Shown in pieces: positions 1 through 10,811 of a DNA stretch of 10,893 bases; position 1 is the first letter of the stretch; each line of letters starts with the position of its first letter. Origin of the DNA: Bacteroidota bacterium (GTDB lineage: Bacteria > Bacteroidota > Bacteroidia > Bacteroidales > Prolixibacteraceae); the NCBI GenBank assembly GCA_030695265.1, contig JAUYTA010000872.1, positions 1 to 10,893 of the forward strand. Reading direction: 5' to 3'. Both the position numbers and the translations under genes were made by a program. Below the pieces are notes generated by a model. It was not told the DNA's origin. It worked only from the letters and a program-made list of their open reading frames with translations, and ran no database searches.

Positions 1-193
1 CGTAATCCACTACAAACAGAAAGATGATTATAAATAATTGTATTACAGATATATGTGTCAATTTTTGAAATGAATAATCGAATTCTGGCACTCTATGAAC
101 CTATATGAATCAAGAAAAATTTCCTCCGAAATGTTAGTTATTTTAGTCTGATAGTCTAAAATAAAAATTTCTTTCCTGAATTGCAATCGACCA
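1..193. other. Intergenic stretch without a convincing gene
   Basis: This A/T-rich stretch lies downstream of the left operon's terminator. I see no credible coding region in it. The only structure is an inverted repeat at 138-164, listed separately. An open frame on the minus strand spans 58-321, but it only runs through the 3' end of the rhodanese gene in the wrong frame and then through the terminator hairpin, so it is not called. Confidence 0.6.
138..164. repeat. A/T-rich perfect inverted repeat, 9-bp arms
   Basis: The arms TTATTTTAG (138-146) and CTAAAATAA (156-164) are exact reverse complements around a 9-base loop. The repeat could be the terminator of a gene lying to the left, or a regulator site. 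The stem is too A/T-rich to make a strong terminator, and in this base composition such a repeat may arise by chance. Confidence 0.35.
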
Positions 194-194
194 T

Positions 195-227
195 AAAAAA
201 AGAGCCATTCTGTTCGAATGGCTCTTT
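195..227 (-). terminator. Intrinsic terminator of the left operon
   Basis: The arms AAAGAGCCATT (199-209) and AATGGCTCTTT (217-227) pair perfectly over 11 bp around a 7-base loop. Read on the minus strand, the hairpin is followed at once by a run of T (complement of the A run at 195-201). It therefore terminates transcription of the rhodanese-porin-cytochrome unit arriving from the right. A near-identical copy lies at 6904-6937. Confidence 0.85.
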
Positions 228-232
228 GCATA

Positions 233-271
233 TTAGCAACCACCGGCTGCTTCTTTTTTCTTTTTTGTTTT
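233..271 (-). other. Untranslated relic of a KTKKKKEAAGGC C-terminal tail
   Basis: Read on the minus strand in the same frame as the upstream rhodanese, this stretch would encode KTKKKKEAAGGC followed by TAA (233-235). That matches the true C-terminus of the exported rhodanese-fold protein at 6943-7569 (KTKKKKGAAGGC) at 11 of 12 residues. Here it sits behind two in-frame stops of the rhodanese frame (TAA at 281-283, TGA at 272-274), so it should not be translated as part of that gene. It could be a decayed former tail, a copied 3' end, or the product of sequencing or assembly errors in the A-rich run. Poly-A tracts make the last possibility real. Confidence 0.6.
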
Positions 272-280
272 TCAATAAGG

Positions 281-1132
281 TTACTTTTCCATTTTGTTTG
301 AAGGCGTTGCAGCCCACTCATTTAACCCTCCATCATAAAGTTTCACATTCGGATATCGTAATATTGATTTTAATGCAAAATATCCTTTTGAAGCTCTTGT
401 TCCTGAACTGCAAATAACATAAATAGTTTTGTCACTGGTAGCTCCTACGTCATTAAACATTTTTTGCAGATCAGTTTTCGATTTGTAGACACTTTTAGCA
501 TCAAGCAATGTGGTGTGGTCAACATTTACTGATCCGGGAATTCGTCCTTTTCCTTTAGGGTCTTTCCCGTTAAACAATGCTGCTTCATGAAAATCGACCA
601 GCGCAATTTTCGAATTTCCAACCGCTGCCTGTACATCTTTCATCGATGCAAAAATTGAATTGTTTACTGAAGTTGAAAATGTTTCAGGTTTAACAATCGT
701 TGGATTTTTAGTTACCGGTTTTCTTGCAGCTTTCCAGGCAATTAATCCTCCATCGAGAATTTTTACATTTGGGGCGCCCATGTATTTGAGTATCCAGTAA
801 ACCCTTCCGGCGTATTTCCCAGTCCCTTCATCATATACAACGATGGTTTTCTTTTCACTAACTCCTTTTGCGTTCATTGCTTTTGCAATTTCTTCAGGTG
901 AGATAAGTAAACCTTCAACTGCACCGACTTTTTTCTCTAAACTTGTATATGGAACATTAACAGCATCGGTAATGTGCACTTTGGCATATTCGGTTTCCAC
1001 TTCGGCTGAGATTACTACAAAACTTGGATCTTTTAATTTGGCACTCAAATCGGCAACAGAAATTAAGTCTTGCGCAATGCCAGCCATTGCCAGACTTAAA
1101 AGAGCAATAAATGAGAATATTAGTTTTTTCAT
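281..1132 (-). CDS. Exported tandem-domain rhodanese (thiosulfate/3-mercaptopyruvate sulfurtransferase family)
   Basis: This 283-residue protein has a signal peptide (about residues 1-20, ending AMAGIA) and two rhodanese domains (about 22-135 and 160-275). The first domain has Asp101 (VVYDEGTGKYAGR) at the cysteine position, as is usual for the structural N-terminal domain of this family. The second carries the catalytic loop CSSGTR with Cys241. Family knowledge: such enzymes move sulfane sulfur from thiosulfate or mercaptopyruvate through a cysteine persulfide. The length is normal for the family and the protein should act in the periplasm. It is the last gene of the left operon, 19 bases after the porin, and is followed by a terminator. 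Beyond its stop lies the relic GGC tail described separately. The fold is certain; the physiological sulfur donor is not. Confidence 0.92.
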   Translation of the reverse strand: MKKLIFSFIALLSLAMAGIAQDLISVADLSAKLKDPSFVVISAEVETEYAKVHITDAVNVPYTSLEKKVGAVEGLLISPEEIAKAMNAKGVSEKKTIVVYDEGTGKYAGRVYWILKYMGAPNVKILDGGLIAWKAARKPVTKNPTIVKPETFSTSVNNSIFASMKDVQAAVGNSKIALVDFHEAALFNGKDPKGKGRIPGSVNVDHTTLLDAKSVYKSKTDLQKMFNDVGATSDKTIYVICSSGTRASKGYFALKSILRYPNVKLYDGGLNEWAATPSNKMEK

Positions 1133-1151
1133 GTTAAACTATTTTATAAAT

Positions 1152-2162
1152 TTAGAATTTAACCTGTACCTGAATGGCAAGTTCGTCGTTTTTTACTTCG
1201 ACGGGTGAATCGCCACTGTACATGTAATTTACTTGCAGACGGGTCCAATCGTTAAAGAAGTAATTGACGCCGAAAGTCATGTTGCTCTCTTTGTATTTTG
1301 ATGTATTACCTGAATCGAAAAAGTCGTACCTGAAAACAGGTTCAAGGTTCCATTTCGACAGGTACGACATGGTAACATAACCTCCACTTCGTTTTTCGCC
1401 CAGTTCAATCAGGTTTCCACTGCATCCGCCACCGAGGTCGCGGTTGTAATCGCCCTGATCTGAAATATATTCACCAAGCAAGGTAAATCCGGCGTATTTG
1501 GCCTGTAATTCGGCACCAATTGAGGTCCTGCTATCAACATTGTTCACATATGAAGGGAATCCGTAACGAAAGCTTCCTCCAATTTTCAGGAAATCCAGTG
1601 GATTAAAGACTACCCGGCCAACAACATCTTTTTTGTTATTGTTGTCGAACTTGCCTAATCCGCTTCCATTCATGAATCCAAGCTGGTAAGTGAATAAAGT
1701 TGAGTCGGTTCCGCCCATGAATACAACTCCTAAATCGCGGAATGGCGCTACCATTTGTAACGTAGCTGTTGAGCGATAAATGGTTGTAAGACCGCTGCAG
1801 GCAGTATTGGTTTCAAGACCAAACGGGGTTTTAAACGAGCCCAATGAAATTCTCGACCATGAAAACCTGTCGTAAGTAATAAATGCGTCGAGAAGATATG
1901 GGTTAGGGGAAATAAACGGGCTGAATTCGGCTACCATATAGTAAGAGAAATCGTAAGGTATCTTGCCCATTACGCCAAGGCGTGAACGTTCGAACGAGAA
2001 TCCGTTTTTAGCCGGATCAGTGTAATGTGATTCGTATTGAGCCTGAAGGAAACCGAATACTTTTAGTCCTTCATCTGAAGGAGCCCCTCCGCAGCCTTGA
2101 GCTGCAACTTTTGTTGCAGTCAGGGCAAATAGCAACATAACAACGATAAATAAGTATTTCAT
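1152..2162 (-). CDS. Outer-membrane porin, Porin_O/P (OprP-like) family
   Basis: This 336-residue protein has an N-terminal signal peptide (about residues 1-21). It is followed by alternating hydrophobic/aromatic segments typical of a beta-barrel, and it ends in ...IQVQVKF with the C-terminal Phe recognised by the outer-membrane assembly machinery. Segments such as SFERSRLGVMGKI and the closing FNDWTRLQVNYMYSGD resemble Bacteroidota phosphate-selective porin O/P-type proteins. Its place between two exported rhodaneses (27 bases from the upstream one, 19 from the downstream one) suggests it admits a sulfur oxyanion or polysulfide, but this is inferred from context only. Unusually for a porin it has three cysteines: Cys24 in QGCGG near the mature N-terminus, Cys122, and Cys247 in GGGCSG. 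Confidence 0.82.
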   Translation of the reverse strand: MKYLFIVVMLLFALTATKVAAQGCGGAPSDEGLKVFGFLQAQYESHYTDPAKNGFSFERSRLGVMGKIPYDFSYYMVAEFSPFISPNPYLLDAFITYDRFSWSRISLGSFKTPFGLETNTACSGLTTIYRSTATLQMVAPFRDLGVVFMGGTDSTLFTYQLGFMNGSGLGKFDNNNKKDVVGRVVFNPLDFLKIGGSFRYGFPSYVNNVDSRTSIGAELQAKYAGFTLLGEYISDQGDYNRDLGGGCSGNLIELGEKRSGGYVTMSYLSKWNLEPVFRYDFFDSGNTSKYKESNMTFGVNYFFNDWTRLQVNYMYSGDSPVEVKNDELAIQVQVKF

Positions 2163-2189
2163 AATCGGTATGAAATTTTGATTTGTAAA

Positions 2190-3149
2190 TTAATTACCGG
2201 TAACTATTGGCAAACTTTTCGACATGGTAGCTTTCCATTGATTAACCGATGTTCCCCAGGCTGAACTTGCATTGTTTAATTTATTCATACCAAACATGAG
2301 GCTTTTTGCATTATAGCCAATAACGCGCAGATAAGCTGAAATTGCAGCTGACGTTTGTCCAGTGTAACAGTAGGTTATCACTTCTTTAGATGAGTCAAGG
2401 TATTTAACCTGGGCTTCACCTACTAAAAGCGGATTGATGCGGTAAGCTCCTTTTATGTGACCAAAAGCAGCATAATCTGTTTCATTGAAATAATTATTAA
2501 TGAAGTATTTGGTTGGATCGGCCAATACATCGGTTGCAGTAACAGATTTAAATCCTTCAGAAAGTACCTGTGCAACTCTGGCTTTAAGGATATTGGCAGG
2601 GACAATATCGGTACTGGAAATTGTTGGGCTCGCGAAGCTTAGATTAGCTGGAGCTGCATCGGTTGTCCAATTAGCATTTCCGACAGCAACGCTTCCAATG
2701 CTCGATGTCCAGACATCTAATTTAGTGTTCCACGAGCTCATTCCCCATTTTAAGGCAACGGCATCGGCATATCCCGACAGACGGAGCAAAGTAACGGCAT
2801 GGGTAGCTGTTTGTCCGGTTTTGCAAACTACCAAAATTGGTTTTGTTGCTTTGGCCGCTTCAGTCAAAATGTTAGCGAGGTCAACCCGACGAGCATCAGT
2901 AATATGACCAGAAGCAAACTCATCGGCAGTTCGGATATCGATCACATATTTTGCACTGACATTTCCATCGGCTGGAGCAGACATCACAAAATTGGCAATA
3001 ATAGTATTGATGTCCAGGTTTTGGGTAACCAAATAATCGGTTAATGCTTTCTGTGCATCAAATGTTTCTTCGTTTTCTTTTTTACAACTGCTTAAAAAGA
3101 AAGCAGGAACAACGACTAAAATAATCAGGAGTTTAAATAGCTTTTTCAT
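2190..3149 (-). CDS. Tandem-domain rhodanese lipoprotein with two active-site cysteines
   Basis: This 319-residue protein has a lipoprotein signal with lipobox LSSC, Cys22 being the lipidated residue. Two rhodanese domains follow, at about 30-150 and 185-305. Both keep a cysteine in the active loop: Cys109 in VVCKTGQTA and Cys261 in TYCYTGQTS. That differs from the common tandem architecture in which only the second domain is catalytic, so this protein may carry two persulfides. Supporting motifs are DIRTADEFASGHI in domain 1 and WGMSSW / FGMNKLNN near the domain ends. It should be anchored in the periplasmic or outer-membrane leaflet. It lies between the small GGC-tail rhodanese lipoprotein and the porin in one operon. 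Substrate is unknown; sulfane sulfur transfer is inferred from the family. Confidence 0.9.
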   Translation of the reverse strand: MKKLFKLLIILVVVPAFFLSSCKKENEETFDAQKALTDYLVTQNLDINTIIANFVMSAPADGNVSAKYVIDIRTADEFASGHITDARRVDLANILTEAAKATKPILVVCKTGQTATHAVTLLRLSGYADAVALKWGMSSWNTKLDVWTSSIGSVAVGNANWTTDAAPANLSFASPTISSTDIVPANILKARVAQVLSEGFKSVTATDVLADPTKYFINNYFNETDYAAFGHIKGAYRINPLLVGEAQVKYLDSSKEVITYCYTGQTSAAISAYLRVIGYNAKSLMFGMNKLNNASSAWGTSVNQWKATMSKSLPIVTGN

Positions 3150-3200
3150 AGAATTGTTTGTTTTTATTTATTGGTTAAAAATGAATTATTTCGTTTGTAA

Positions 3201-3710
3201 TTAACATCCCCCGGCAGGTTTTGGGGTATCGTGCCCGCCACTCATTTTTTCGAGGTTTTTCTCAAAAATATCGGGGAAAGTTAATTCCCACTGCTTCCAA
3301 CCTTCTTTTAAGGTTAAAACATTGGTATATCCCAATTGCTGAAGTGTTTGGGCTGCCAATATTCCACGTTTGCCTTTCTGGTCGTACACAATAATTTTTT
3401 CACTGGGTAATGGCATGTAAATACCAACACTTTCCCAGAAAATAGAATCAGCAATTTTGAATTCAAGACTTCCTCGTGGTATATTTACTGATCCGGGAAT
3501 GTATCCGGGATAATGTTCGTCAGCCTGGCGCACATCAATCAACGTATATACTTCTTCTCCACCCATCAATCCTTTTAGCTCTTCAGAGGTAATTATTTTG
3601 ACTTGTTTTTCTGCTTTATTCACCATTTCATCAACATTGGCGAACTTCTCGGATTTGTTACATGCTGCAATAATGATTGCAATTGCGAATGCGAATACTA
3701 TTTTTTTCAT
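3201..3710 (-). CDS. Non-catalytic rhodanese-fold lipoprotein ending in AGGC
   Basis: This is a 169-residue single-domain protein. The frame is open to 3767, but the start at 3710 is preferred: it begins MKKIVFAFAIAIIIAAC, a clean lipoprotein signal with lipidated Cys17, and it follows the previous gene by 28 bases instead of overlapping it. The rhodanese fold is marked by LIDVRQADEHYPGYIPGSVNIP and IIVYDQKGKRG...LGY..VLTLKEGWKQW. The catalytic cysteine position is Asp110, so ordinary sulfurtransferase activity is not expected. A short linker follows and the protein ends ...HDTPKPAGGC. Apart from lipidated Cys17, the last residue, Cys169, is the only cysteine. This suggests a membrane-tethered sulfur carrier with a mobile terminal thiol. 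The fold is well supported; the carrier role is inference. Confidence 0.88.
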   Translation of the reverse strand: MKKIVFAFAIAIIIAACNKSEKFANVDEMVNKAEKQVKIITSEELKGLMGGEEVYTLIDVRQADEHYPGYIPGSVNIPRGSLEFKIADSIFWESVGIYMPLPSEKIIVYDQKGKRGILAAQTLQQLGYTNVLTLKEGWKQWELTFPDIFEKNLEKMSGGHDTPKPAGGC

Positions 3711-3738
3711 TGTCGTGTCTTTTTTATACTGATTGTTA

Positions 3739-4347
3739 TTATGTGCTTTCTTTGGTAATTGGCTCATCTTCGTATCCCGAAATCATGGCTTTAACATTCG
3801 TTGTGATTCGATGCCCGGTTGATGTCATATAAACATGAACAATAAGGAAGGCTAATAAAAGGAAAGCTCCGAGCGTGTGTGTGATTACTGCAATCCATAA
3901 ACCGCTTGCATCGATTGGATTTTCAGGATAATGGTAATACATATAAAGCAAACCGGTGATTGTTTGTACTGGGAAAATCAGGATTAATAAACCCAGGTAA
4001 ATGATTCGTTGTAATGGGTTTAGCTTGTTGGTCGCTGTTTTTTGTGTTGGATGTGGCGCGTTTTGAAAAATCCCTTTGGCGTAATAGTTGATTTGTTCTT
4101 TAAGCTTATTCCTGGTTGGTATGAAATTTTGATATTGACCTGTAACAAACAGCCAAAAGATGGTGATAAATCCGAGTATGATAAACGTAATGGCTGCAGC
4201 ATTGTGCAATCTTACCGCTTGTTCGAAACCAAACATCTCATAATTACCATGTATTTCGAAACCGGTAAGGGTAAGTAAAATAACCACTGCCATCTGACTC
4301 CAGTGCCAAAAGCGCTCAAACCTTGAAAATATTTTTATTTTTCTCAT
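3739..4347 (-). CDS. Four-helix membrane cytochrome b (cytochrome b561 / Ni-hydrogenase b-type family)
   Basis: This 202-residue integral membrane protein has four predicted helices at about 17-34, 49-70, 114-138 and 150-176. Histidines suited to two b hemes are His15 (FWHW), His48 (RLHNAA), His157 (ITHTLGAF) and His171 (LIVHVYM). The RFERFWHWSQ opening is typical of di-heme cytochrome b subunits of formate dehydrogenase, hydrogenase and thiosulfate reductase (PF01292-like). In those families it exchanges electrons with the quinone pool. It starts 11 bases after the octaheme cytochrome c gene, so the two probably form a quinol-linked electron-transfer pair. I infer that it delivers menaquinol electrons to the octaheme protein; the reverse direction is possible. 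Confidence 0.87.
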   Translation of the reverse strand: MRKIKIFSRFERFWHWSQMAVVILLTLTGFEIHGNYEMFGFEQAVRLHNAAAITFIILGFITIFWLFVTGQYQNFIPTRNKLKEQINYYAKGIFQNAPHPTQKTATNKLNPLQRIIYLGLLILIFPVQTITGLLYMYYHYPENPIDASGLWIAVITHTLGAFLLLAFLIVHVYMTSTGHRITTNVKAMISGYEDEPITKEST

Positions 4348-4358
4348 TTTGCTTTGAT

Positions 4359-5960
4359 TTACAAATTGTTTTTACGGGCTAATATTCGCAGGACGGAATG
4401 GATAAGAACCCCCAGAATTGAAATGATAATGATAGCAAAGCCGGAATAATCAGCTGCTTTCGCGTAATCACGGCCTGGAAGATAAAATCCCGAAAGTTTG
4501 GCCAGTCTGCCTTCATCGCTGCGGGTGTGGCAATCAATGCATTTCAGTGTTTGTTCTTTAGGCGAAACCTGATGGTTTATTGGCCAGTACGCTTCGGTTT
4601 GAACGAAGTCAAACTTGCCGCTATATGGACGTTCAGCATATTGCATGCCGAGATAAATAGCAGTATCCCAGCGTAAATCTTCCCAAAAAGCGCCTTCGCC
4701 TTTCTTATTTGCGAATACTTTTACATTCACTAATTGTTTTGAAATGGTATCGTAAGGCTGTTTCCCACGGTGAATCTTAACGGGCCATATTTTCGATTCC
4801 TTATCTTCATAACTACCCATTAAAGTATTAATCTTAACTGGTATTGTTTTGATGGTGTCTTCATACAGGTAATGATCGGCAGTTCCGTTAAACCATGCGT
4901 AGTCGGGTTTTACATGGTCGTTCCATACAAAATGTCCTTTTATTGAAATGTAGCTGTATTTGTGTTGGTTATCGTATTCTGTGATCGGATTACCGTTTGC
5001 ATCACGTTTCCCGGCAACGGACCAATCCCAATACATAACTGTTGGATTTACCTTAGCGTAAATTGGTATGTGACAGGTTTGACACGCAACTTTAATGTTG
5101 TGCATATCAAGTACTTTGTCGTTATGTGGAGCATTTGTGTGACATTGCTCGCAGGTAGAACGGTTGGTGTTTTCGGAAGAAACGCTGTAAGCCCGTCCTT
5201 TAATGTTATGGTTTTCGGTAAGGTGACAATCATTACAGGCCATATCTTTTCCGTCTTTGGCCATGTGAACATCAACAGAACGGGAGCAATTCAGCATGGC
5301 TTCTTCCAGATCGCCATGTTTAACATTGTTTCCACCCCCACCATGAAAATGACATACACCACAATTTTCTTTTTTAGGTTTTCCTACGTTTTGTGATACA
5401 TAGTTATAGTCGGGCACCGGGAATTCGGCAGAAGCATTTTCAGCAGTAGCTGGCATCCCGGCACTGTTTTTTCGCTTTTTATAGGTGTTGGTATTGTCGT
5501 GGCAAACTAAACAGTCGATGTTATTCGGATCACTAAAATCAAAAGATTTATCCTGCCAGCCATATCCAATATGGCAACGCATACATGATCCATTATTGCC
5601 ATCTGCTGCCATACAGAAATTATTGATCAGATTTTTTTTACCGATGTTAACTTTTCCACGGCCATTTGGTAGGTTGGTTTCTCTTTCCCATTTCCAATGA
5701 GCCGAAGCCATTAATTCATCATCGCGCTTATTGTGGCATGAGAGGCAGGCTGCCGTTACATCTTGTGGTCGTTTAAATTCTTGTTTCAGGATTTCAAATT
5801 CAGAGTGGTCAACTTTTTTACCCATTTCGGCTCTTACCTGATATTCCATTTTAATTGGTGTTCCCCTTCTAAGCCCGAAATGTACGGTAAGGAAAATTAC
5901 AAGGGCTGGAAGTAATAGTACCACCAGAAATGTAGTTAGTTTTTGAGCCGTTTTATTCAT
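4359..5960 (-). CDS. Octaheme c-type cytochrome, tetrathionate reductase (OTR) family, membrane-anchored
   Basis: This 533-residue protein has exactly eight CXXCH heme motifs, at residues 72-76, 126-130, 150-154, 200-204, 242-246, 270-274, 293-297 and 474-478. The long gap before the last heme and the HGGGGNNVKHGDLEEA...DVHM region fit the octaheme tetrathionate reductase family known from Shewanella, whose members reduce tetrathionate and, in vitro, nitrite and hydroxylamine. Non-heme cysteines include Cys116 and Cys225. A hydrophobic N-terminal segment (about 8-27) and a C-terminal helix (about 507-525) would anchor it to the membrane with hemes outside; the Shewanella enzyme is soluble. 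It is the first gene of the left operon, directly upstream of the cytochrome b. The true substrate cannot be read from sequence, but a sulfur oxyanion fits the neighbours. Confidence 0.92.
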   Translation of the reverse strand: MNKTAQKLTTFLVVLLLPALVIFLTVHFGLRRGTPIKMEYQVRAEMGKKVDHSEFEILKQEFKRPQDVTAACLSCHNKRDDELMASAHWKWERETNLPNGRGKVNIGKKNLINNFCMAADGNNGSCMRCHIGYGWQDKSFDFSDPNNIDCLVCHDNTNTYKKRKNSAGMPATAENASAEFPVPDYNYVSQNVGKPKKENCGVCHFHGGGGNNVKHGDLEEAMLNCSRSVDVHMAKDGKDMACNDCHLTENHNIKGRAYSVSSENTNRSTCEQCHTNAPHNDKVLDMHNIKVACQTCHIPIYAKVNPTVMYWDWSVAGKRDANGNPITEYDNQHKYSYISIKGHFVWNDHVKPDYAWFNGTADHYLYEDTIKTIPVKINTLMGSYEDKESKIWPVKIHRGKQPYDTISKQLVNVKVFANKKGEGAFWEDLRWDTAIYLGMQYAERPYSGKFDFVQTEAYWPINHQVSPKEQTLKCIDCHTRSDEGRLAKLSGFYLPGRDYAKAADYSGFAIIIISILGVLIHSVLRILARKNNL

Positions 5961-6068
5961 GTTTTAGTTAATTAATAACATTGCTAAAATATGGCTATCT
6001 CTTCTTGCAATGCTATTTTAAACCAACAACTAAACGGTAGATTTTCATTCTGTCCGTCACAGAAATCC

Positions 6069-6082
6069 TTGACGTAAATCAA
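6069..6082. promoter_or_regulatory. Putative Fnr/Crp-family operator (TTGAC-N4-ATCAA)
   Basis: TTGAC GTAA ATCAA matches the Fnr half-site palindrome TTGAT-N4-ATCAA at nine of ten fixed positions. It lies in the 179-base region between the divergent octaheme cytochrome and the Crp/Fnr-type regulator, about 57 bases before the regulator's start and about 109 before the cytochrome's. A weak Bacteroidota-like -7 element for the regulator (TTTCTTTG, 6094-6101) follows it. In that arrangement the box would overlap the -33 region and suit autorepression, while activating the divergent operon. No promoter for the octaheme gene is clear enough to call. Confidence 0.6.
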
Positions 6083-6139
6083 AGATTTTATTGTTTCTTT
6101 GTACAAATGGGTATTTTAACTAACTAATTAATTATACAA

Positions 6140-6844
6140 ATGACATCTGGAATGGAAGTGGTACAGCATAGCTGTGCAATTGGTAAAAAATCAGGTTCAT
6201 GTATAGATCTTCTAACTACACAAGAGCAGGATTTGGTTAATTCTAAAGCTGCAGAAGTAAATTACAGGAAAGGGGAGATTATTTGTAAGCAGGGAGGTCT
6301 GGCGAATCAAATCATGATTGTTCGCGAAGGACTGGTTAAGATTTATATGGAAACCAATAGCGGACAAGATCTGGTTCTGCAAATTATGCCATCAATGAAT
6401 ATCATTGGCTTATCAGCTCTGTTTGGTGGAAATTCAGTTTATCAATTCTCTGCCCGAACTTACCATGACACCAAAGTTCAGGTAATTGAAATCAGTGTAG
6501 TGAAACAACTAATCAGGTCAAATCCCGAATTTGCTCTTCATATTGTTGGGATGCTGGCTGAATACAATACCATTATAAGTGGACGTTTTTTTTGTCTCAC
6601 GCACAAGCAGACTTATGGCCGCTTTTCTGATGTTATACTTTGCCTTGCCAATCGGATTTATAAAGATAAAACATTTCCTCTTCAGCTATCGCGCAAAGAA
6701 CTTGCTGAAATTGCTGGTATGTCGATTGAAAGTGTTGCACGGATACTTTCCCGTTTTAAAGAGGAAAAACTCATTGAAATTGATAATAAGCAAATCCGCA
6801 TTCTCGATTATGAAAGGATGTGTGAGATAAGCTTTAAAGGTTGA
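6140..6844 (+). CDS. Crp/Fnr-family transcriptional regulator
   Basis: This 234-residue protein has an N-terminal cyclic-nucleotide-binding-type barrel (about 28-140), a dimerisation helix (about 125-160) and a C-terminal winged helix-turn-helix. The HTH segment LSRKELAEIAGMSIESVARI (about 183-202) has Glu197 and Arg201, the spacing of the DNA-contacting Glu and Arg of Fnr. Fnr's intervening Ser is Ala here. This fits the Fnr-like box upstream. Cysteines at 12, 21, 49, 152 and 168 could sense redox state or persulfide, but the N-terminal spacing is not the classic Fnr iron-sulfur pattern and the effector is unknown. It is the only plus-strand gene, divergent from the octaheme operon and convergent with the right operon. 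I infer control of the left operon and possibly of the right one. Confidence 0.92.
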   Translation: MTSGMEVVQHSCAIGKKSGSCIDLLTTQEQDLVNSKAAEVNYRKGEIICKQGGLANQIMIVREGLVKIYMETNSGQDLVLQIMPSMNIIGLSALFGGNSVYQFSARTYHDTKVQVIEISVVKQLIRSNPEFALHIVGMLAEYNTIISGRFFCLTHKQTYGRFSDVILCLANRIYKDKTFPLQLSRKELAEIAGMSIESVARILSRFKEEKLIEIDNKQIRILDYERMCEISFKG

Positions 6845-6903
6845 TCAAGCAACGATTTCTCCAATACAAAATGTTATTCTTTTGCTTTGATTGATTGGCA
6901 CAC

Positions 6904-6937
6904 AAAAAAAAGAGCCACTCTGTTCGAATGGCCCTTT
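6904..6937 (-). terminator. Intrinsic terminator of the right operon
   Basis: The arms AAAGAGCCACT (6909-6919) and AATGGCCCTTT (6927-6937) flank the same 7-base loop as the terminator at 195-227. In minus-strand RNA all 11 positions pair, two as G-U wobbles, and a U run follows (A run 6904-6911). In plus-strand RNA those two positions would be A-C mismatches and there is no U run. It therefore ends the right operon rather than the convergent regulator gene, for which I see no good terminator. Confidence 0.85.
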
Positions 6938-6942
6938 GCATA

Positions 6943-7569
6943 TCAGCAACCCCCTGCTGCTCCTTTTTTCTTTTTGGTTTTTTGAATGACTGGTTTTGGC
7001 AAATCAGTTTTTATTCCCGGACTTGCTGCTGCAGCATCTAATCCGCCGCCCAATGCCCGGTTGGCGCCCATCCTGAAATTGTATTTGGCAATTTCTTCAT
7101 TTGGACTGCTTTCCGCTGGTTTTTCAGGATTCATAATGGTTTCGGCCCAATAGTTTAAGCCGCCCTGAAGCACGTAATTGTTATTGTAGCCCAACTGACG
7201 GGTGATCATCCAAGCCTGATTTGCGTCGTTGCTGCTGTTCGAATAGAAAACGTTTACTTTTACATCCTGATTCAAAACGTCGTCGTATTCGCTGCTTAGT
7301 AAACTTTCGAGTGGAATATTGATCGCATTGGGCAAACTGAATTTCTCAAACTGATCTTTGCTCCTCACATCAATCAGTTGCATGGATGGATCTTTATCAA
7401 TCAGCATCTGTGCAATTTCGTCGGGACTCATAAACTGACGGTTTTCCATCACTTCAATCAACAATTCTTCAGCTGTTAATTTGTATGGACGGGTGGTGTT
7501 TTCAGGTACTGCTGCAATGATAAATCCAAGTGGAAGTATAGCAATTGCAAGTATTTTGAGTGATTTCAT
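6943..7569 (-). CDS. Exported non-catalytic rhodanese-fold protein with lone C-terminal Cys (GAAGGC end)
   Basis: This 208-residue protein has an N-terminal signal or anchor segment (about 1-20) with no lipobox. Its rhodanese domain (about 45-145) shows QLIDVRSKDQFEKFSLPNAINIP and FYSNSSNDA...LGY..NYVLQGGLNYW. The catalytic Cys position is Ser110, and the loop Gly and Arg are also lost (Ser113, Asp115). A 60-residue linker rich in Ala, Pro, Gly and Lys leads to the end ...KTKKKKGAAGGC. The final Cys208 is the only cysteine in the protein. Such a layout suggests a carrier holding sulfane sulfur on a flexible arm rather than an enzyme. It is the last gene of the right operon, 11 bases after a YeeE/YedE gene, hinting that it hands sulfur to or takes it from that transporter. 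The function is inferred. Confidence 0.88.
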   Translation of the reverse strand: MKSLKILAIAILPLGFIIAAVPENTTRPYKLTAEELLIEVMENRQFMSPDEIAQMLIDKDPSMQLIDVRSKDQFEKFSLPNAINIPLESLLSSEYDDVLNQDVKVNVFYSNSSNDANQAWMITRQLGYNNNYVLQGGLNYWAETIMNPEKPAESSPNEEIAKYNFRMGANRALGGGLDAAAASPGIKTDLPKPVIQKTKKKKGAAGGC

Positions 7570-7580
7570 AGTCCGGATTT

Positions 7581-8186
7581 TTAATGTTGGTTAATTTTAT
7601 AATCGTCTCGGGCAAATTTCTTTTCGGCCCATTCCCCCACCCAAAACATGGCAAGTGCCATCAAAATAATGAGGAACGTTAACATACCGCGCGAAGTACC
7701 AATCAGATTGTTCAGCAAAGGATAGCCCAGATCTTTGGCTTTGTAAAATCCTTCCCAAAGCGGATAACCTTCAGCAAAAATGAAGATACCAATGAAAAGT
7801 CCGCCAATAAAGGCCAACGCATCTAACTTGCCGATAGATGCTGCTGCGAACGATGTTCCGGGGCAGTATCCGCCCAGAATGAAACCTGCACCCATAATTA
7901 CTCCGCCTCCAATGGCTGACCACAAGAAGGTAGGATTGATATAGATAAGGCTGAGATCGAGCATACCGAACAAGCTTAGGAAGAGAATACCAATCATACC
8001 GACAATCGCCGCTGTGAAGAATACTTTCAGTACGGTGGTGTCGTAACCGTAAAACATACCGGCAAGTCGCCGGCTGGAAGAGAATCCATTGATTTCGAGC
8101 ACAAAACCAAACGCAATTCCAATAAGGAAGGCAAAGAAAAGATTGGTTTCGGGTGATATTATTTCGTTTACTACTAAAGGTCCCAT
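7581..8186 (-). CDS. YeeE/YedE-family sulfur transporter, half-size (GYCPGTS type)
   Basis: This 201-residue polytopic membrane protein has about five hydrophobic segments. The family motif GGYCPGTS holds its only cysteine, Cys108. Near the start is GFVLEINGFSSSRRLAG, where many YeeE/YedE proteins carry a Cys; here it is Ser. Full-length YeeE (TsuA) proteins of roughly twice this size import thiosulfate through conserved cysteines, while half-size pairs (PmpA/PmpB type) split the fold in two genes. This is one half; the other is at 8372-8896. A role in moving thiosulfate or another sulfur compound across the inner membrane is inferred. The ATG at 8184-8186 has no Shine-Dalgarno; its leader is mostly a T/C-rich tandem repeat. 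Confidence 0.88.
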   Translation of the reverse strand: MGPLVVNEIISPETNLFFAFLIGIAFGFVLEINGFSSSRRLAGMFYGYDTTVLKVFFTAAIVGMIGILFLSLFGMLDLSLIYINPTFLWSAIGGGVIMGAGFILGGYCPGTSFAAASIGKLDALAFIGGLFIGIFIFAEGYPLWEGFYKAKDLGYPLLNNLIGTSRGMLTFLIILMALAMFWVGEWAEKKFARDDYKINQH

Positions 8187-8371: not shown

Positions 8372-8896
8372 TCAGATCCAAAGTTTGCGGGCGAAATATG
8401 CCAGTCCAAAGGCGGTTCCGAAGATAGCTGCCATGGTAACAAATCCACCTACCGACAATACGGCCATTCCTGTCAAAGCTGATCCGCTGGTACAACCTCG
8501 CCCCAGTTGCGAACCAAACCCGAATAAAATGCCGCCAATCGTTGCGAATATTAGTCGGGTTTTGTTGGTGATTTTAGGAGATTTTTCCACGTTGAATTTT
8601 AATCGACCGGCAAATGCTCCTGAAATAAAACCTCCAACAACAACACCCATCATTTGGAAAACCAACCATGCTTTCCATGGATTTTCTTTGGCGCTTCCAT
8701 ATTCTTTGAAGAATGGAGCTGCGGCAGCATGTGCAGGTGCAATGGCTTCAACGCCAGCAACGATCAAGCTTTTTGGAGCGCCACTGGCTCCCAATCCGCG
8801 TCCTGAAACCCAGAATGCAAATACCAGCACCAATCCCAGCAAAGCTCCGCCAAGATATGGATTCATGTACTTTTTAGGTTTATTGTCTTTTGTCAT
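8372..8896 (-). CDS. YeeE/YedE-family sulfur transporter, half-size (GRGCTSG type)
   Basis: This 174-residue membrane protein begins with a short charged segment and has about four to five hydrophobic stretches. Near the first helix is SGRGLGASGAP (31-41), and the family motif QLGRGCTSGSALTG contains its only cysteine, Cys135. GRGCTSG is a hallmark of the YeeE/YedE family, and the residues complement the GYCPGTS half encoded downstream, so the two probably form one transporter or a pair. It precedes the other half by 185 bases and follows the NrfD-type subunit by 428 bases, both gaps being filled with repeats. The substrate is unknown; thiosulfate or another sulfane-sulfur compound is likely from family and context. 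A long frame on the opposite strand is a shadow. Confidence 0.88.
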   Translation of the reverse strand: MTKDNKPKKYMNPYLGGALLGLVLVFAFWVSGRGLGASGAPKSLIVAGVEAIAPAHAAAAPFFKEYGSAKENPWKAWLVFQMMGVVVGGFISGAFAGRLKFNVEKSPKITNKTRLIFATIGGILFGFGSQLGRGCTSGSALTGMAVLSVGGFVTMAAIFGTAFGLAYFARKLWI

Positions 8897-9324: not shown

Positions 9325-10266
9325 TTAGTAGAGCCAACGGCTCAATTGACCGGCATAGACAATGATGAACCGCAACATTATGCTTCCGAACAAAACCAGA
9401 ACGACAGGAATTATAACCGGAACTTTAATGTGTTTCAATTCCATAATTTCAAGTACTGCCGGAACTGCCATACCTAAAACCACCACGAAAATCCAGAACG
9501 GTGCGGTATATTGACCTCCAAGGAATAAATTGGCTGCATCAATCTGAACCGATGTGCTTGCCAGAAATCCCATGAAAAGGTGGGTAATCAGGAACAATTC
9601 GATGACAATCAGCAGTAAATCTATTTTGGCAAATAATATGCGCTCTTTCTTGGATTGTGAGAATAGAATGATTGTTGCCGCACCTGCCGATAAGCCTGAA
9701 GTCAGGAACAGCGGTCCAAGAATGGATGTATTCCAAAGCGGACGGGCATTGAAGGCTGATAACAGGATGCCGGTGTAAATTCCCAGAATGACTGCATATA
9801 TAATAATAATCCAGGCCAGGTAATATTTATACTTCACCAGAAAAGCTTCAATCTGTTTTAAAATGTCGTATTTCCAGTCCCATTTGGGGAAAAATTCGCG
9901 GATATGCAGTGCAACCCAAACCATCGAGAGGGGAGTAATGGCCATTAAAGTCCAGGCACCCCACGACATGGGTGATTGCAAACGGACGGTGGTATAAAGT
10001 TGCCAGAAGTAGAGTTTGTGTTTCAAATCCAAAAACAAGGCAAACAGACCAAGTACCAGCAAAATAGGAACAATAATTGGCGCGCGGCGAACTGCTCCCG
10101 GATAATTATCCTCTTTTCCCATAATGGTGTACAATGCGGCAAAAAACAAAATGCCTGCTGCCAAACCACCAAGAAACAGATAAAGTGGAATTTGCCAGTG
10201 CCAGATTTCCAGATAGGGATCAATATGCGGATTCAGCCGACCGCTTGTGATGATTTCTTCTCTCAT
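9325..10266 (-). CDS. nrfD: NrfD/PsrC-family membrane anchor subunit (polysulfide reductase type)
   Basis: This 313-residue protein has eight predicted helices, at about 24-48, 63-82, 102-121, 147-171, 183-204, 213-236, 256-277 and 284-306. Family signs are IPLYLFLGGLAAG in the first helix, SPMSWGAWTL before the third and TSGLSAGAA in the fifth. NrfD/PsrC subunits bind quinol in the membrane and pass electrons to a ferredoxin-like partner; the length is close to that of PsrC. The ferredoxin-like subunit lies 11 bases upstream and the end of a molybdopterin enzyme before that, giving a PsrABC/PhsABC-like complex. I infer menaquinol-dependent polysulfide, thiosulfate or tetrathionate reduction; nearby sulfur genes support this, but the catalytic subunit is mostly outside the window. 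Confidence 0.92.
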   Translation of the reverse strand: MREEIITSGRLNPHIDPYLEIWHWQIPLYLFLGGLAAGILFFAALYTIMGKEDNYPGAVRRAPIIVPILLVLGLFALFLDLKHKLYFWQLYTTVRLQSPMSWGAWTLMAITPLSMVWVALHIREFFPKWDWKYDILKQIEAFLVKYKYYLAWIIIIYAVILGIYTGILLSAFNARPLWNTSILGPLFLTSGLSAGAATIILFSQSKKERILFAKIDLLLIVIELFLITHLFMGFLASTSVQIDAANLFLGGQYTAPFWIFVVVLGMAVPAVLEIMELKHIKVPVIIPVVLVLFGSIMLRFIIVYAGQLSRWLY

Positions 10267-10277
10267 TCCTTTTCAGT

Positions 10278-10811
10278 TTAAATAAGGTAATAAACCTGTG
10301 GTTTTGTTCCGGCCTCCGGAATTAGTGTCTTGTGTTTGCGCTTTTTCAGAACGAGTGAAACTTCGCTGTTCGGATTTTCCAGGTCTCCAAAATACATGCA
10401 CTTGGTAGGGCATACAGCCACGCAGGCAGGTTTTTCCCCTTTTTCTATCCGGTGAATGCAGAAGGTACATTTATCGACATATCCTTCAGGATGCGAATAC
10501 CGTGCATCGTATGGGCAGCTTGCAATGCAGGCGCCGCAGCCAATGCATTTGTGATGGGTTACCACAACAATTCCACCTTTTTCGTAATGACTGGCGCCGG
10601 TAGGGCAGCAGCGTACGCAAGGCGAGTTGTCGCAATGGTTGCAGCGTTCCGAACGAAGTTCAATCTCCAGTTGCGGATAAGTTCCATCGGTTACTTCTAC
10701 AATCCAGTCGCGGCAATACCCGATTGGTACATTATTTTCAGTCTGACAAGCTACCACACAATCGGCACAGCCGACGCATTTTTTTGTATCAATGGCCATT
10801 GCATATCTCAT
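10278..10811 (-). CDS. Four-cluster 4Fe-4S electron-transfer subunit (PsrB/PhsB type)
   Basis: This 177-residue ferredoxin-like protein has sixteen cluster cysteines in the arrangement typical of molybdoenzyme beta subunits: 12/15/18/22, 57/60/65/69, 89/92/95/99 and 115/118/130/134, with the usual cross-pairing between the first and fourth groups. The start MRYAMAIDTKKCVGC is preferred. It overlaps the upstream gene's stop as ATGA (10808-10811), which implies translational coupling, and a GAGGTG ribosome site lies 6 bases before it. There is no signal peptide, so if it acts outside the membrane it must be exported together with a Tat-signalled catalytic subunit, as for PsrA/PsrB. It should relay electrons from the NrfD-type anchor to the molybdenum site. 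Confidence 0.93.
   Translation of the reverse strand: MRYAMAIDTKKCVGCADCVVACQTENNVPIGYCRDWIVEVTDGTYPQLEIELRSERCNHCDNSPCVRCCPTGASHYEKGGIVVVTHHKCIGCGACIASCPYDARYSHPEGYVDKCTFCIHRIEKGEKPACVAVCPTKCMYFGDLENPNSEVSLVLKKRKHKTLIPEAGTKPQVYYLI

Follow-up and report, generated by a model that had tools for sequence, protein, structure and literature searches.

The question raised by this locus is what a rhodanese-fold protein can do once its catalytic site is dead and its only cysteine stands at the very end of the chain. The protein, which we call GGC1, is encoded in a window of 10,893 nucleotides (the whole stretch of Bacteroidota DNA analysed here), where it closes an operon that combines subunits resembling polysulfide reductase with the two halves of a split YeeE-type transporter. 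A second cluster of the window is built around an octahaem cytochrome c of the tetrathionate reductase family (OTR). All features are collected in Table 1.

Table 1. Features of the window, with positions, strand and the basis of each assignment.
Feature	Position	Strand	Basis
Two-domain rhodanese, signal-like N-terminus, CSSGTR in second domain	281..1132	-	profile
Porin_O_P-type porin of the OTR operon	1152..2162	-	profile
Lipoprotein with two rhodanese domains, Cys-containing loops CKTGQTA and CYTGQTS	2190..3149	-	profile
GGC2, rhodanese lipoprotein, Asp at catalytic position, C-terminal ...PKPAGGC	3201..3767	-	ORF, profile
b561-type cytochrome, OTR partner	3739..4347	-	profile
OTR, tetrathionate reductase family octahaem cytochrome c	4359..5960	-	TIGR04315, 579.6 bits, cut-off 375
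Crp-type regulator between the two clusters	6140..6844	+	profile
GGC1, rhodanese-fold protein, 208 aa, dead catalytic site	6943..7569	-	ORF, profile, model, alignment
Gly-Gly-Cys-stop of GGC1	6943..6954	-	sequence
GGC1 arm, residues 176-208: variable Ala/Pro linker, Lys cluster, GGC	6946..7044	-	model and alignment
Rhodanese domain of GGC1, PF00581, residues 48-143	7141..7428	-	profile match
Ser110 codon of GGC1, at the place of the catalytic Cys	7240..7242	-	alignment
N-terminal hydrophobic segment of GGC1, residues 3-21, mean hydropathy 2.38	7507..7563	-	hydropathy
YeeB, half of YeeE/YedE-type sulfur transporter, single Cys108 (GGYCPGT)	7581..8186	-	profile
YeeA, other half of YeeE-type transporter, single Cys135 (GRGCTSG)	8372..8896	-	profile
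PsrC/NrfD-type membrane subunit	9325..10266	-	sole PDB match 2vpw chain C, 29.2 bits
PsrB/NrfC-type iron-sulfur subunit	10278..10811	-	best PDB match 2vpw chain B, 229.6 bits
PsrA (molybdopterin subunit), last 27 codons, cut by the contig end	10808..10893	-	sequence comparison

Anatomy of GGC1

An earlier note on this DNA had described GGC1 as a rhodanese fold with a dead active site, a long linker and a lone cysteine as its last residue, and our analysis confirms this description in each of its parts. The PF00581 profile matches residues 48-143 with 60.1 bits against a cut-off of 22.2, and the top Foldseek matches of the structural model are rhodanese-like domains (best 3nhv, E 2.8e-7); in a sequence search, Sud of Wolinella (1qxn) ranks fourth among 12 PDB relatives with an E value of 0.0027. 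The catalytic loop of rhodaneses follows the motif C-x-x-G-x-R. In GGC1 it reads S110-N-S-S-N-D, with Ser110 at the catalytic position and the Cys, Gly and Arg of the motif all missing. The variable Ala/Pro linker and the Lys cluster lie within the C-terminal arm, and the chain ends in KKKKGAAGGC, where the final residue, Cys208, is the only cysteine of the protein.

The AlphaFold model of GGC1 (36 relatives) is confident for the rhodanese core, including a helix at residues 157-172, and pLDDT falls below 50 at residues 176-193 and 203-208; the 33-residue tail of low confidence is probably flexible. At the other end of the protein, residues 3-21 align with the extra membrane helix found in fusions of YeeB to a GGC-ended rhodanese, and therefore we read them as an uncleaved anchor. 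Judged by hydropathy and charge under the positive-inside rule, this anchor probably holds the N-terminus inside and the C-terminus outside. The AlphaFold model of a YeeB fusion is poor (pLDDT 58.3) and lends this topology no support.

Conservation of the tail and of its genomic company

Our systematic search for relatives covered Bacteroidota in the GTDB sense and yielded 127 distinct ORFs from 186 loci, with a BLASTP threshold of E <= 1e-12 to nine subtype representatives; family matches were listed in 45 of 395 genomes, and loci were taken for part of these and of the further matches listed in 60 genomes of the family. After exclusion of three ORFs cut by contig ends from the tail count, 124 complete relatives remained, all of which differ from each other over their last 120 residues. 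Every one of the 124 has a Gly-Cys end, exactly terminal in 110 and followed by one residue in 14, and the motif is GGC in 112 and EGC in 12. By comparison, none of 547 other ORFs from the same loci ends in Gly-Cys and two end in Cys, this background being a mechanical set of ORFs of at least 250 aa, some of which need not be genes. Mean column entropy is 0.15 bit at positions 206-208, 3.18 bit at 177-195 and about 2.1 bit in the domain, where the core residues Asp67 and Arg69 are invariant (124/124). The same tail is found in the protein database: 119 of the best 120 of 2401 relatives of GGC1 end in GGC, and 119 of the best 120 of 3128 relatives of the YeeB fusion end in GGC or GGCS, the lone exceptions being two partial entries. 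Where these proteins have a name at all, it is mostly 'rhodanese-related sulfurtransferase' or 'rhodanese-like', given to proteins without the catalytic residue.

The catalytic position is occupied by Ser in 74 of the aligned relatives, by Gly in 27, by Ala in 22 and by Cys in a single one (L157), while in three others (L107, L112 and L165) a Cys adjoins it; 33 of the 124 have a further Cys, their second or third, between residue 44 and the end. The earlier note had proposed to check whether the terminal GGC goes together with a missing catalytic Cys in homologues; a Gly-Cys end without a catalytic Cys is found in 123 of the 124, which strongly supports this part of its interpretation. It had also named, as evidence against its reading, relatives in the same context that lack the terminal Cys. 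None exists among the 124; below the family threshold of E <= 1e-12 there are two Cys-less relatives of 158 aa. Each of the latter is a second relative that follows a carrier ending in GGCE (L113 6352-6828, L114 5959-6435), an arrangement that recalls SoxZ beside SoxY.

Both transporter halves of the window match PF04143 (YeeA with 79.0 and YeeB with 50.4 bits, cut-off 27), and the adjoining enzyme appears to be of the PsrABC type, in that all three of its subunits, with the A subunit taken from a homologous operon (L027; 667 bits to chain A), have their best PDB match in 2vpw, the C subunit weakly. We take 2vpw to be PsrABC of Thermus thermophilus, a polysulfide reductase; its PDB title is thiosulfate reductase. 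The assignment of PsrA is similarity-based, its score against the NCBI PhsA model being 451, below the cut-off of 694. In the window's genome (G000), an N-terminal part of PsrA was found on contig C92. One similarity search gave 44 loci, of which 43 (L013-L055) contain true relatives. The remaining one (L056), the one match from Desulfobacterota, was rejected as a family member, the match being short and local; the multi-domain rhodanese encoded near its OTR-b561 pair has no GGC tail. A YeeB half is located directly upstream of the carrier in 43 of 43 loci, and the order NrfC-NrfD-YeeA-YeeB-GGC1 is preserved in 41, the other two (L016 and L038) being contig fragments that start at YeeB. In two fully read loci, NrfC is preceded by a molybdopterin subunit whose N-terminus looks twin-arginine-like by eye, and genes recognized by eye as those for the molybdenum cofactor surround the operon.

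Our study distinguishes four genomic types: (a) a Psr operon with one carrier, which is also present in records of named strains, for example of Carboxylicivirga and Prolixibacter; (b) a Psr operon with two tandem carriers, both GGC-ended; (c) YeeA-YeeB followed by a carrier ending in LDGGCE, with no Psr within the examined stretch; and (d) OTR-b561-YeeA-YeeB, with an extra membrane helix joining YeeB to a dead rhodanese and its GGC tail in one protein. Type (c) is represented in the window's own genome by a 3.8-kb contig (C104) that encodes its third GGC-type rhodanese, ending in GGCE. Fused proteins account for 22 of the 124 relatives; 17 have OTR or b561 in reach, one (L148) has Psr, and the remaining four, from short loci, show neither. 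The respiratory neighbour is mostly of the PsrABC type, it is OTR for most fusions, and the third type shows neither. On most of the fusion proteins listed in the database, PF00581 and PF04143 are already marked together.

The association of the family with split YeeE transporters is close to one-to-one. YeeA/YeeB halves lie within 5.5 kb of, or are fused to, 119 of the 124 complete relatives; among the other five, three have less than 510 bases of contig upstream and two, in a single locus (L140), directly follow NrfD. In that locus (7-1314) a pair of carriers stands after NrfD with no YeeE between and the contig end beyond, and both tails read VKVEVEEGGC. In a count over 60 genomes of the family, uncorrected for kinship, a GGC-family match lies within 1.5 kb of, or is fused to, 58 of 60 split-YeeE N-halves (YeeB-type), compared with none of 23 full-length YeeE proteins of the same genomes, one of them truncated where its contig starts. 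The two N-half exceptions sit at contig edges, and so do the two GGC matches that have no YeeB beside them. For this count the GGC family consisted of 60 matches with E values up to 2e-13, part of them read to the end, and YeeE matches were accepted at E <= 1e-8. The window's genome has two split transporters and one full-length transporter of the YeeE type.

The tandem carriers of type (b) provide a further view of the tail. Over 14 tandem pairs, identity averages 58% in the 12 residues before xGC, compared with 25% in the protein bodies, and re-pairing of tails across loci gives a mean of 29% and reached the observed value in 1 of 10,000 cases. The pairs divide into seven with strong similarity (75-100%) and seven with weak similarity (17-42%). 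Codon comparison covered the strong group, where synonymous differences outnumber non-synonymous ones in every case, and therefore recent gene conversion is unlikely as the sole cause of the matching tails. In one genome that has both systems (G030), the Psr tails are unlike the OTR tail. The tail may be recognised as a unit, with each arm adapted to its own enzyme or pore.

GGC2 and the OTR cluster

The window encodes a second GGC-ended rhodanese, GGC2, which the earlier note had overlooked, as it had the third one of the genome on contig C104. GGC2 bears an N-terminal lipobox-type Cys. Among the best 120 of its 321 relatives, 119 end in Cys (88 GGC, 27 GSC and 4 others), and the catalytic position holds Cys in 107 and Asp in 10, with three unparsed. 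The ten nearest of these 120 listed relatives share the catalytic Asp of the window (YDQKGKRG), and most of the others have Cys. Because the listed relatives of GGC2 mostly have both cysteines (107 of 120), the arm can exist while the active Cys is kept; the idea that it depends on loss of this residue was not borne out and has been dropped. The GGC2 line, most of whose listed members have both, looks like an intermediate state.

The arrangement of a Crp gene followed by the operon OTR-b561-GGC2-double rhodanese lipoprotein-porin-two-domain rhodanese was also identified in four other genomes, and the GGC2 tail is present in all five of these operons. It is absent from four of four distant GGC2 relatives, which have CSxG or CGxG loops and around which no OTR was found in stretches of 5.9-18 kb. 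The tail of GGC2 tracks the OTR operon (5/5 vs 0/4), and therefore arm and enzyme context go together again. In another locus (L034 11218-12549), the OTR-associated b561 is fused C-terminally to two similar sensor-like repeats, PAS-like by eye.

The two clusters of the window may also bear traces of rearrangement. Direct repeats of 78 bp, identical at 71 of 78 positions and composed of the last GGC1 codons and a terminator-like stretch, lie at window positions 195-272 and 6905-6982 and flank the whole OTR-Crp cluster. One locus without an OTR match (L014) aligns with window positions 140-276 over the GGC1 end and about 95 bases beyond. These alignments suggest an insertion of the OTR cluster at the 3' end of GGC1. 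In the sister genome G018 (L179), 97.7% identical over window positions 157-6860, the OTR-GGC2 cluster is intact, and after Crp, at about 12136-12436, only scars are found (91 bp of GGC1 and 208 bp of the YeeB region). No other intact GGC1 match except a YeeB fusion was identified in this genome, from which the Psr-YeeE-GGC1 operon appears to have been lost. We rejected a chimeric assembly at the Crp-GGC1 junction of the window: the sister genome has the same junction with the GGC1 scar.

Proposed function and relation to known sulfur carriers

SoxY carries sulfur intermediates on a cysteine of a C-terminal GGCGG swinging arm, and the molybdenum enzyme SoxCD acts on its cargo. GGC1 is partly like SoxY in having its candidate carrier cysteine on a C-terminal Gly-Gly-Cys arm, and in the GGC1 and GGC2 settings the partners are likewise molybdenum or multihaem enzymes and a YeeE-type transporter; the tandem pairs, moreover, recall the SoxY/SoxZ dimer. 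It differs from SoxY in its fold, with PF00581 as sole profile match and no match to PF13501, and on this ground membership in the SoxY family was rejected. Other differences are the place of the cysteine, which in the GGC1 family is last or last but one, with no trailing GG, and the probable membrane anchor or the fusion to the transporter. Profile searches found no SoxAXB/SoxCD-like match in the window. The second point of reference is Sud of Wolinella succinogenes, a single-Cys rhodanese that feeds polysulfide reductase and carries sulfur on its rhodanese-loop Cys. GGC1 is also a single-Cys rhodanese fold, is related to Sud by sequence and shares an operon with a PsrABC-like enzyme, but its loop residue is Ser and its sole Cys is on the arm. 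With DsrC, which has a Cys near its C-terminus, TusA and LbpA it shares the idea of a sulfur carrier, although these are cytoplasmic and of unrelated folds.

Several published systems touch on parts of this arrangement. In the accessible part of one report, one SoxY variant adjoins an octahaem otr gene and another is co-localised with yeeE/D (PMC11237559). For Desulfurivibrio dismutans, active rhodanese lipoproteins of Psr operons have been proposed to take up sulfur outside the membrane, with YeeE/YedE as the inward route; the likeness is an exported rhodanese in a Psr operon, and the difference is that the proteins described there have three rhodanese domains, the accessible part of the text mentioning neither a dead site nor a GGC arm (PMC12142623). 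The transporter halves YeeA and YeeB belong to the same family as YeeE/YeeD (TsuA/TsuB), SoxT and PmpA/PmpB, and PmpA/PmpB are, as far as that source was accessible, likewise split halves with one conserved Cys each (PMC11582611). In the accessible part of the same source, SoxYZ is proposed to hand sulfur to the YeeE-like SoxT, a transfer described as conceivable but chemically questionable (PMC11582611). TsuA differs from the transporter described here in its partner, the cytoplasmic TusA-like TsuB, in place of which we find a putatively outward-facing dead rhodanese and, in the window's genome, no TusA. In the literature searched, with subscription papers largely outside its reach, we found neither GGC-ended dead rhodaneses nor the YeeB fusion described. 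The architecture is visible in databases without a published account that we found, and swinging-arm carriers as a kind are already known. To our knowledge, the rhodanese fold is not known for sulfur-carrier swinging arms.

The arrangement of GGC1 mirrors SoxY and Sud, and therefore we suggest that it would ferry sulfane sulfur among donors, Psr or OTR, and the split YeeE pore. That GGC1 is such a SoxY/Sud-like carrier, membrane-anchored, facing outward and serving the enzyme and the transporter with a swinging arm, is in our judgement moderately probable, and the genes around it (split YeeE, PsrABC or OTR) are consistent with a role in handling sulfur. Against it stand the relatives with a Cys at or beside the catalytic position or with further Cys, the Cys-less second relatives of two operons, the L140 pair with no YeeE after NrfD and the weak tail similarity in half of the tandem pairs. 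In this scheme the rhodanese domain would perform no transferase chemistry on a cysteine of its own and would serve for docking and as a scaffold. The exported protein would be loaded with persulfide on the single thiol at the tip of its flexible, lysine-rich arm of about 33 residues, and the arm would present this cargo, presumably sulfane sulfur, to the operon's own respiratory enzyme (PsrABC, or OTR in most fusions) for reduction or oxidation. It would also reach the mouth of the split YeeE pore, whose halves in the window have one Cys each, so that sulfur could pass between enzyme and transporter, in the direction of import or of export. TusA is the usual cytoplasmic sulfur acceptor. A search for it (PF01206) found none in the window's genome, an assembly of 1074 contigs with 9.69% contamination, while the control was positive in 11 of 14 genomes; import of sulfur is disfavoured because no TusA was found there.

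Other explanations of the terminal cysteine have been considered. It might be a docking or redox switch, in which a disulfide with a Cys of YeeE, of Psr/OTR or of the tandem partner tethers or gates the complex. Exactly one Cys each in the YeeA and YeeB of the window, matching tails in 7 of 14 tandem pairs and the physical fusion of YeeB to the rhodanese domain in many genomes would suit such a switch, but a disulfide made for docking requires no Gly-Gly hinge at the very end of the chain, and the same tail is retained in the fusions, which are tethered already; we regard it as unlikely. We hold it to be less likely still that the cargo of the arm is another soft ligand (selenium, arsenic, mercury or copper) and that the operon serves that element: a single Cys is a poor metal chelator, and the best match of all three enzyme subunits is of the PsrABC type, not an arsenate or selenate reductase. 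What speaks for this ligand are two similarities below cut-off, of YeeE to relatives that include selenium transporters and of the OTR-cluster porin to ExtI of selenite/tellurite reduction.

Two further explanations concern the tail as such. A motif that is short, C-terminal, usually Lys-rich and nearly invariant could be a lipidation site or another C-terminal processing signal, comparable to protein-sorting tails. However, GGCS, GGCA, GGCG and GGCE ends exist (14 of 124), for which reason a C-terminal sorting or lipid tail was rejected; moreover, no hydrophobic segment follows the motif, GGC2 already has its lipobox-type Cys and the fusions are already membrane proteins, so that we consider this explanation very improbable. 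Finally, the loss of the catalytic site would be expected of a pseudoenzyme with a functionless tail, whether by drift or as an annotation artefact, but a drifting pseudoenzyme is contradicted by the low entropy of the tail relative to the adjoining linker and by the Gly-Cys end of all complete relatives, and it was rejected as scarcely credible.

A broader reading of the sulfur-carrier proposal, which we offer tentatively and with somewhat less confidence than the proposal itself, is that Bacteroidota have evolved a SoxY of their own. A rhodanese would have given up its catalytic Cys and moved the sulfur to a C-terminal Gly-Gly-Cys arm, and this arm would have become the obligate outer partner of a split YeeE; its fusion to the pore would have occurred chiefly in OTR systems, and its doubling into SoxYZ-like pairs in certain Psr systems, with GGC2 half-way, most of its listed members having both cysteines and some the arm only.

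Transfer of sulfur from extracytoplasmic carriers to transporters of the YeeE/SoxT type is unsettled in print, as far as the accessible part of the source goes (PMC11582611), and here a Cys-tipped arm is fused to half of such a transporter. If our proposal is true, the swinging-arm solution arose on an unrelated fold, many 'rhodanese-related' proteins without a catalytic residue would be accounted for, and, on the broader reading, the fusion would be the first hard-wired periplasmic sulfur-carrier arm that hands its cargo to a YeeE/SoxT-type transporter.
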